From positions 1 to 33,615 of the forward strand of contig CALVCR010000002.1 in NCBI GenBank assembly GCA_944326125.1: a stretch of 33,615 bases of DNA. The letters run 5' to 3'. The notes below the pieces were generated by a model, which was not told the origin of the DNA, did not search any database, and saw only the letters and a list, made by a program, of their open reading frames with translations. Source of the DNA: Candidatus Gastranaerophilales bacterium (lineage in GTDB: Bacteria > Cyanobacteriota > Vampirovibrionia > Gastranaerophilales > Gastranaerophilaceae). Of the stretch, positions 4,639-16,240 are shown in pieces. The stretch's first letter is position 1; each line of letters begins with the position of its first letter. The position numbers and the translations under genes were made by a program.

Positions 4639-6129
4639 ATGGACTGGCAGAAAGAAGATTTAAAATATATATGGCACCCTTGCTCACAAATGAAGGATTA
4701 TGAAACACTTCCTCCCATTGTTATAGAAAGAGGAGAAGGAATTAATCTTTATGATATTAACGGAAAGTGCTATAAGGATGTTATAAGTTCATGGTGGTGT
4801 AACCTCCTCGGACACTGTAACCCGAGAATCAGCAGAGCGGTAAAAAAACAGCTCGATACACTGGAACATGTTATTTTTGCTAATTTTTCACACAAACCCG
4901 CAATAACTCTCTGTCAAGAACTTATGAAAGTCTTACCGGAAGGTTTGTGTAAATTTAACTTTGCAGACAACGGATCTTCAGCCATAGAAATGTCTTTAAA
5001 AATGAGTTTTCAGTACCATTACCAGACCGGAAATCCCCAGAAAAAAAGATTTATGGCACTCTCTGATGCATATCACGGAGAAACACTGGGAGCACTTGCC
5101 GTAGGCGGAGTTGATTTATACTCAGAACTCTACAAACCGCTCCTTTTAGATGTAATAAGAATTGACGGTCCGGATTGTTTCCGCTGCCCGTACGGGAAGC
5201 ATTGTGCAGGGCACTCCGAAGAAATTGACACCTCACCCCAGCCCTCTCCTGTAAGGAGAGGGGAGCTCTCATCCGCTCAGCCACTCAGTCACTCAGTCTC
5301 CGATTCACGACTCGCGGCTCACAGTTCACGAAGTATTGACACTCAAGAAGAGGGAACCTTCTGTGCTTGCGAATGCTTCAAAAAAGCTGAAGAAGCTTTT
5401 GCAAAACATGCAGACGAAACAGCTGCAATAATAGTAGAGCCGCTGCTTCAAGGCTCTGCGGGAATGAAAGTTTATCCGCCTTTGTATTTGAAAAAATTAA
5501 GAGAACTCTGCGATAAATACAACGTTCACTTAATAGCTGACGAAATTGCAACAGGATACGGCAGAACAGGCAAAATGTTTGCGTTCGACCATGCCGGAGT
5601 AAGCCCTGATATTATGTGTCTTTCCAAAGGTTTAACCGGAGGTTACATGCCGATGGCAATAGCCATAACAACCCAAAAGATTTATGACGCATTCTATGAC
5701 GACTATCTTAAGGGGAAAGCCTTTATGCACTCCCACACTTATTCAGGAAACCCTCTTGCCTGCTCGGCTGCAATAGAAGTTTTAAAAATCTTGAAAGATG
5801 AAAATGTTATAGAAAAAGCCAACAAAAGGGCAGTTTATTTCAATAAAATTATTAAAGAAAAGTTCCTCCCGCTTGAAAATGTCGGAGAAGTCCGCTCTAT
5901 CGGTTTAATTAATGCAATTGAACTTGTTAAGGAGAAGAATACAAAAAAACCTTTAGATTACACGAAAAGAACCGGATACCAGATATACAAAAAAGCGCTT
6001 GAAAAAGGTGTGCTCTTAAGACCTCTAGGGGATGTAATCTACTTTAATCCTCCGCTCATTATAGAAGAGGATGATATGGATCTTGTCACTGATATTGCAT
6101 TAGAATGCACTAAGAAAGTTTTGATTTAA
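4639..6129 (+). CDS. bioA: Adenosylmethionine-8-amino-7-oxononanoate aminotransferase BioA, with an in-frame insertion
   Basis: 496 residues. BioA is the PLP enzyme that moves the amino group of S-adenosylmethionine to 7-keto-8-aminopelargonate, producing the BioD substrate. Family blocks are clear: WHPCSQM near the start, SSWWCNLLGH, the LIADEIATGYGRTG block and the PLP lysine in LSKGLTGGY (Lys330). RBS GAAAGG precedes the ATG. Odd point: after a Cys-rich stretch (CFRCPYGKHC) the protein has about 37 extra residues from 5224-5342, low-complexity and Ser/His/Arg-rich, encoded by a repeat-family insertion; removing 111 bp restores a 459-residue enzyme and joins EEIDT directly to QEEG. The PLP site is downstream and intact, so activity is plausible but untested. 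The 3' end overlaps the convergent reductase gene by 20 bp. Confidence 0.93.
   Translation: MDWQKEDLKYIWHPCSQMKDYETLPPIVIERGEGINLYDINGKCYKDVISSWWCNLLGHCNPRISRAVKKQLDTLEHVIFANFSHKPAITLCQELMKVLPEGLCKFNFADNGSSAIEMSLKMSFQYHYQTGNPQKKRFMALSDAYHGETLGALAVGGVDLYSELYKPLLLDVIRIDGPDCFRCPYGKHCAGHSEEIDTSPQPSPVRRGELSSAQPLSHSVSDSRLAAHSSRSIDTQEEGTFCACECFKKAEEAFAKHADETAAIIVEPLLQGSAGMKVYPPLYLKKLRELCDKYNVHLIADEIATGYGRTGKMFAFDHAGVSPDIMCLSKGLTGGYMPMAIAITTQKIYDAFYDDYLKGKAFMHSHTYSGNPLACSAAIEVLKILKDENVIEKANKRAVYFNKIIKEKFLPLENVGEVRSIGLINAIELVKEKNTKKPLDYTKRTGYQIYKKALEKGVLLRPLGDVIYFNPPLIIEEDDMDLVTDIALECTKKVLI
5224..5342 (+). repeat. In-frame repeat-family insertion inside bioA, flanked by 8-bp direct repeats
   Basis: ATTGACAC occurs at 5224-5231 and again at 5335-5342, 111 bp (37 codons) apart. 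The insert contains a perfect 9-bp hairpin (CCCTCTCCT at 5242-5250, AGGAGAGGG at 5254-5262, loop GTA) followed by short TCAC/ACTC-rich repeats. Two other fragments in the window are related: 24873-24910 matches 5224-5261 at 30 of 38 positions without gaps, and the reverse complement of 23558-23577 matches 5295-5314 at 16 of 20. The flanking repeat may be a target duplication or may be part of the element, because the 24.87-kb copy also carries ATTGATAC. Confidence 0.7.
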
Positions 6130-16161: not shown

Positions 16162-16240
16162 GCGCTTGTAGCTCAGTAGGATAGAGCGGAGGTTTCCTAA
16201 ACCTTGTCTGCCGTGGGTTCGACTCCCTCCAGGCGCACCA
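16162..16240 (+). tRNA. trnR: tRNA-Arg (anticodon CCU)
   Basis: 79 bases with encoded CCA. Acceptor GCGCTTG pairs with CAGGCGC, discriminator A. D-arm GCTC/GAGC. Anticodon stem GAGGT/ACCTT encloses TTCCTAA, anticodon CCT at 16196-16198, reading AGG. T-arm GTGGG/CCCTC holds the invariant TTCGA, with one T-T mismatch in the stem, and the variable loop has about 7 bases, slightly long. It has its own promoter and an immediate strong terminator. It is the only complete tRNA among several copies of its ends at this locus. Confidence 0.88.

Follow-up and report, generated by a model that had tools for sequence, protein, structure and literature searches.

The bioA gene in the stretch of DNA analysed here (33,615 nucleotides, hereafter the window), which derives from a Candidatus Gastranaerophilales (Vampirovibrionia) genome, carries a palindromic segment in frame, raising the question of what this segment is, how it entered a conserved enzyme and whether it represents tolerated junk or a new protein segment. 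The same alternative has accompanied in-frame palindromes since those of Rickettsia, and their entry route has been a puzzle. Placement of the window in this group was drawn from related loci, most of which bear the name Candidatus Gastranaerophilales, Melainabacteria or Cyanobacteria bacterium. All genomes are metagenome-assembled drafts, their frames were read by computer, and the results are known from sequence alone.

The window BioA scored 545 bits against the TIGR00508 bioA profile, for which the cut-off is 405. The preliminary description had proposed an in-frame palindromic repeat in this gene, and its components were all found again, namely two copies of ATTGACAC at 5224-5231 and 5335-5342, a perfect 9-bp hairpin with a 3-nt loop, and a stop-free offset of 111 bp (Table 1). 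Codon 196 begins at 5224, and the 37-residue peptide encoded by the unit reads IDTSPQPSPVRRGELSSAQPLSHSVSDSRLAAHSSRS; the unit itself is composite, made up of a REP-like hairpin and, 3' of it, TCAC octamers and heptamers. Without the 111 bp the protein would have 459 aa, a length inside the 447-472 aa range of its nearest relatives, as expected from the earlier suggestion that deletion gives a BioA of normal length. Folded as RNA, the 111-nt unit was unremarkable (z -1.0), and the short hairpin alone gave z -1.9 for the bioA copy and z -3.7 for the copy in ilvC described below.

Table 1. Features of bioA and of its variable loop in the window
Feature	Position	Strand	Basis
bioA, adenosylmethionine-8-amino-7-oxononanoate transaminase, host gene, 496 aa	4639..6129	+	ORF; TIGR00508; PDB homologues 6zhk, 3dod
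BioA variable loop hosting insertions, between invariant C180/C183 and C242/C244/C246	5176..5376	+	39-sequence alignment, loop alignments
Composite unit 1, in frame, 111 bp encoding residues 196-232 (37 codons); most relatives without it	5224..5334	+	
REP-like core TTGACACCTCACCCCAGCCCTCTCCTGTAAGGAGAGGGGAG, encoding DTSPQPSPVRRGE; stem 5242-5250 / 5254-5262	5225..5265	+	Fold -16.5 kcal/mol
Octamer-like TCAC module CTCAGCCACTCAGTCACTCAGTC, also seen 3' of other REP copies	5266..5301	+	Alignment of copies
Heptamer array GATTCACGACTCGCGGCTCACAGTTCACGA, also seen 5' of or between other REP copies	5302..5331	+	
Putative second REP unit relic TTGACACTCAAGAAGAGGGAACC, left arm lost	5336..5358	+	Loop DNA; inferred from alignment by eye

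The columns of the five cysteines that bound the loop were invariant in the 39-sequence alignment. Given the variability of the loop and its position between the two invariant cysteine groups, the insert is presumably exposed at the surface of BioA. In the AlphaFold model built with the 39 sequences, which is of low confidence (mean pLDDT 63.8), residues 184-242 fell below 50 and the insert was modelled as disordered. The invariant cysteines resemble a metal-binding knuckle, with the insert lying between their two groups. The only Rfam match within the window was a tRNA gene at 16162-16237.

In the preliminary description, conservation of the segment in BioA orthologs, or a lack of other copies in the genome, had been named beforehand as an observation that would speak against an inserted repeat. 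Among 81 BioAs (the window and 80 loci), 61 had only a short loop such as CPYGKCRDNCNCECF, and 20 had longer loops. Nine of these 20, the window among them, carried the REP peptide in one common frame, as TSPQPSPQGEGE or a variant of it, and at two further loci (L070 and L072) the repeat lay in the opposite orientation with the frame open (APSPQGEGWGEGA). On a BioA tree computed without the loop, the forward REP required five changes (gains or losses), at least three of them forced by well supported branches. Carriers also decayed to relics, as in L061 and probably L069. As a separate observation, the bioA genes of L067 and L080 were 91-100% identical in all windows outside the loop, while the loop read HCEGHSSLCKQELSPC in one and CRDNC in the other, as though only the loop had been swapped.

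Other copies in the genome likewise proved to be numbered in dozens, one of them in frame in ilvC. A 126-bp query returned at least 51 matches in the same genome at E<=10 and about 30 at E<4e-4; the REP core was found 22-24 times among the matches listed, against none for a reversed-pattern control, and copy numbers vary with the pattern used. Only two of 28 copies examined in this genome lay inside conserved genes. The core was present in 34 of 65 genomes of the same genus, with up to 40 copies per genome, and across the class in three of 89 sampled genera. A consensus built on 31 copies extends from TTRACACCTCACCCC across the hairpin to GGGAG, and TTRACAC forms the conserved left end of the repeat, with A, C, A and C at positions -23 to -20 conserved at 77-94%. 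Many copies are followed by octamers (CTYAATCACTYAGTCACT), and heptamers (GATTCACGACTCACGGCTCACG) occur 5' of or between copies. As a short palindrome in many, mostly extragenic copies with a shared consensus, the repeat agrees with the definition of a REP (PMC12306157). By inspection, neither a GTAG nor a CGTC tetranucleotide was found at the element ends, which read TTRACACC and GGGAG. In addition, the repeat does not fit the description of a MITE, having no inverted repeat at the unit ends and with the flanking ATTGACAC belonging to the element itself.

Conserved genes holding in-frame copies, besides bioA, number about ten, and the copies occupy all three forward frames. In the ilvC gene of the window's own genome (L028), a second in-frame copy encodes AVHTPADTSPHSSPQGEEAFQIALSYA, about 9 residues longer at that place than the solved enzyme; in its 97% identical relative in G063 the segment is shorter and probably decayed (HTPATTTPQREEAFQ), and a short form (about EKDFSGNSKELALSYA) was found in most of the genus examined. 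In sister genomes of the same genus, long open frames cross copies in ilvD, an M24 aminopeptidase, alaS, lpxK and hydF, and further long open frames do so in genes for a PepT-like peptidase, a glycosyltransferase (GT2), an AsmA-like protein and a phage-portal-like protein. When solved homologues were aligned, the element fell at an insertion in ilvC, ilvD, alaS, M24 and the PepT-like peptidase; in hydF it fell at a length difference, and in lpxK and LdcA no clean gap stood opposite it. Within the genus, orthologs free of the REP were aligned for bioA, ilvC, ilvD and M24. Comparisons including a carrier gave dN/dS of 0.03-0.21, showing the host genes to be under purifying selection. That sister species have such in-frame copies in other conserved genes strengthens the reading of the bioA segment as a palindromic insertion. 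It is uncertain whether the copies in L319 (LdcA), L330 (RibF, antisense), L361 and L374 lie in genes.

The ilvD gene shows several states at one place. At the site between LHILA..N and DFEELS, with loop states called by eye in 30 species, the loop was empty (nine residues) in 11, held a forward REP in five, a reverse REP in two and a decayed REP in one, and was occupied by a GGGGTAAATGCA repeat (GVNAGVN) in five and by other sequence in six, for which the ilvD tree required 12 changes (gains or losses). The GGGGTAAATGCA units lie in frame in ilvD of G061, G062, G077, G018 and G064 (L445-L447, L449 and L444). Since the GGGGTAAAT repeat of ilvD complements ATTTACCCC repeats that stand beside REPs in the window's own genome, two repeat families share this one site. 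Among the contents of the loop are unrelated sequences of many lengths.

In the M24 aminopeptidase, a REP occurs at the same place in six species scattered on the tree, requiring six changes (gains or losses), of which at least five are forced. Identity among these six carriers is 86-100% in the REP core and 73-84% over the 300 bp of the gene that precede it. Carrier G059 is 91-100% identical to its REP-free sister G020 over most of the gene and 66% and 64% identical in the two 60-bp flanks, whereas with the distant carrier G010 it shares 48-86% elsewhere and 100% and 93% in these flanks. The excess of flank identity was 0.08-0.28 among carriers G059, G064, G010 and G063, against a mean of -0.02 and a maximum of 0.10 between carriers and non-carriers. 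At the M24 loci L408, L410, L415 and L421, distant species have in common some 60 bp to either side of the element, a short transferred tract centred on the repeat. For this one gene, these identities show that the element-bearing allele moved between species together with its flanks. Co-conversion of flanks as a general rule was rejected, as no shared-flank tract surrounds the element in bioA or ilvD, and the two other M24 carriers, G061 and G072, showed little or no flank excess.

With high probability, these observations are best explained by the spread of a REP-like repeat with tolerated in-frame copies. A non-autonomous REP-like palindromic repeat would have been amplified within one Gastranaerophilales genus, mostly between genes, and would also enter permissive loops of conserved enzymes, where the surviving copies would be those with a length that is a multiple of three and a loop without a stop codon. 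The tolerated product would be a flexible peptide rich in Ser, Pro, Gly and Glu, reading TSPQPSPQGEG, LTPTLSCKERE or PHPDPLPQGA depending on the frame, and is presumably expressed. The changes in each lineage probably reflect insertion rather than repeated loss, and the element is presumably maintained as selfish or neutral DNA. In the window, bioA on this reading holds a tandem pair, a full unit of REP, octamers and heptamers and, downstream of it, an older relic of a REP.

An alternative history, in which a 103-bp element entered bioA once by clean transposition and duplicated the 8-bp target ATTGACAC, accounts for the two exact flanking copies, whose offset is a multiple of three, but it is very unlikely given the structure of the repeat. 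Since TTRACAC constitutes the element's own left end, conserved genome-wide, the ATTGACAC pair marks the starts of two successive units, and a target-site duplication was rejected in favour of a tandem composite whose second unit is a relic. Moreover, the second ATTGACAC follows the heptamer array, as REP starts do in L005 and L014, and the sequence downstream of it resembles the right arm of a REP; in the sister genome L061, an intermediate relic (TTGACACTTCTCCTCAAGGAGAGGGGGAA) stands where the window has TTGACACTCAAGAAGAGGGAACC. Tandem REP units also occur elsewhere, at spacings of 156 and 153 bp on contig C12 of the same genome and 129 bp on contig C7 of G010. It is even less credible that the carriers are pseudogenes or assembly artefacts with a frame open by chance. 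All data do come from draft metagenome assemblies and the REP is poor in stops in most frames, but the window bioA is under purifying selection (dN/dS 0.03-0.06 against its nearest relatives), the genes are whole and open on both sides of the element, and the sites are common to independent assemblies.

Selection might instead favour the insertions at these loops, either through an action of the mRNA hairpin or through tuning of the enzymes by the peptide, as the repeated use of the same loops, the higher identity of the M24 core than of the sequence preceding it and the transfer of alleles between species could suggest. This is nevertheless rather unlikely, considering that most species lack the element, that the ilvD loop is filled as well by unrelated sequences, that BioA carriers decay to relics and that the 111-nt fold is not significant. 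Regarding the agent behind the spread of tolerated in-frame copies, the repeat is small, mostly intergenic and does not itself encode a protein, and was therefore probably moved in trans or by recombination. Mobilisation by a RAYT (REP-associated tyrosine transposase), as in classical REP/REPIN systems, would suit the REP-like shape and the presence of Y1_Tnp/RAYT-type genes (PF01797) in 36 of the 65 genomes, including one in the window's own genome. Their number, however, was not correlated with REP copy number (Spearman 0.18, p 0.15, 65 genomes), three of the nine genomes with at least five copies have no Y1_Tnp, and no Y1/RAYT-type gene was found in G063, which with 40 copies is the genome richest in the repeat. 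The PF01797 count across the 65 genomes tied no transposase to the repeat, and a RAYT as its driver has a low probability. A broader proposal, offered tentatively, is that certain core-enzyme loops of this genus serve as standing landing pads for several unrelated short repeat families, in frame and in either orientation, with element-bearing alleles spreading in addition by short co-conversion tracts; if so, repeat-derived peptides would be exchanged genus-wide as loop modules.

Protein-coding palindromes in frame are known already from Rickettsia (Ogata 2000, 2002) and Wolbachia (PMC2229807), the Rickettsia palindromic elements (RPEs) being 105-146 bp long stem-loops with terminal inverted repeats, and gmk bearing an RPE was found to be active (PMC2229807). 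The Gastranaerophilales repeat is likewise a short palindromic repeat, partly intergenic, that lies in frame in conserved protein genes and whose peptide is apparently tolerated; it differs in its core of about 41 bp with a 9-bp stem, 3-nt loop and TCAC arrays in place of a long stem-loop with terminal inverted repeats (z -1.0), in its phylum, and in that a single loop took up the element repeatedly, in various species and in either orientation. Compared by mode and description, it can be said to work like the RPEs. Intragenic REPs with GTAG/CGTC ends, of 20-40 bp in ORFs, have also been reported in Opitutus terrae, Thauera, Xanthomonas, R. conorii and others, and in recB of two Xanthomonas species they occupy about the same site (PMC3733652). 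These too encode short peptides and sometimes form dimers or tandem groups, whereas the present repeat lacks the GTAG/CGTC end tag and resides mainly in biosynthetic genes (bioA, ilvC, ilvD, alaS and lpxK), many of the former being in DNA repair genes. The grouping of REPs with spacer modules recalls BIMEs and REPINs, but the window units stand head-to-tail in the same orientation with octamer and heptamer spacers, while BIMEs alternate in orientation (PMC2817692). The core of the preliminary description, a palindromic repeat inserted in frame, tolerated and resembling RPEs in an unrelated lineage, is thus supported; the likeness in mode stands, and the record of in-frame REPs outside Rickettsia precedes this case. 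Literature searches found no paper on such repeats in this group and nothing relevant for the letters of the element, and no earlier description was seen of enzyme loops that are used again and again throughout a genus, in both orientations and by more than one family of repeats.

The phenomenon is hereby extended to Vampirovibrionia, far from Rickettsia, and one genus offers the same loop empty, filled, reversed, decayed and replaced across dozens of species. The hosts are ordinary soluble enzymes, amenable to expression and assay, so that the question of tolerance versus use becomes directly testable, providing a natural test of selfish DNA becoming part of proteins.

Open frames through the copies in L015, L162, L194, L196, L272 and L391 were discarded as probable chance ORFs with unconserved flanks. 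In L272 (G041 contig C19, 14529-14861), six REP cores stand in tandem at 60-bp spacing and are open in two frames for more than 120 codons, an array that may be due to chance or may be a repeat protein. Furthermore, closely similar palindromes with a TCACCCC..CCCTCTCC stem occur in the E. coli cpsG-wcaJ spacer, on a Methylobacterium plasmid and in cas10d of Stanieria cyanosphaera, where the palindrome lies in frame on a plasmid (L498, 1501-1534; LPLPQPLSYKERGERQGEG); these are short sequences and could be either homologous to the Gastranaerophilales REP or convergent with it.
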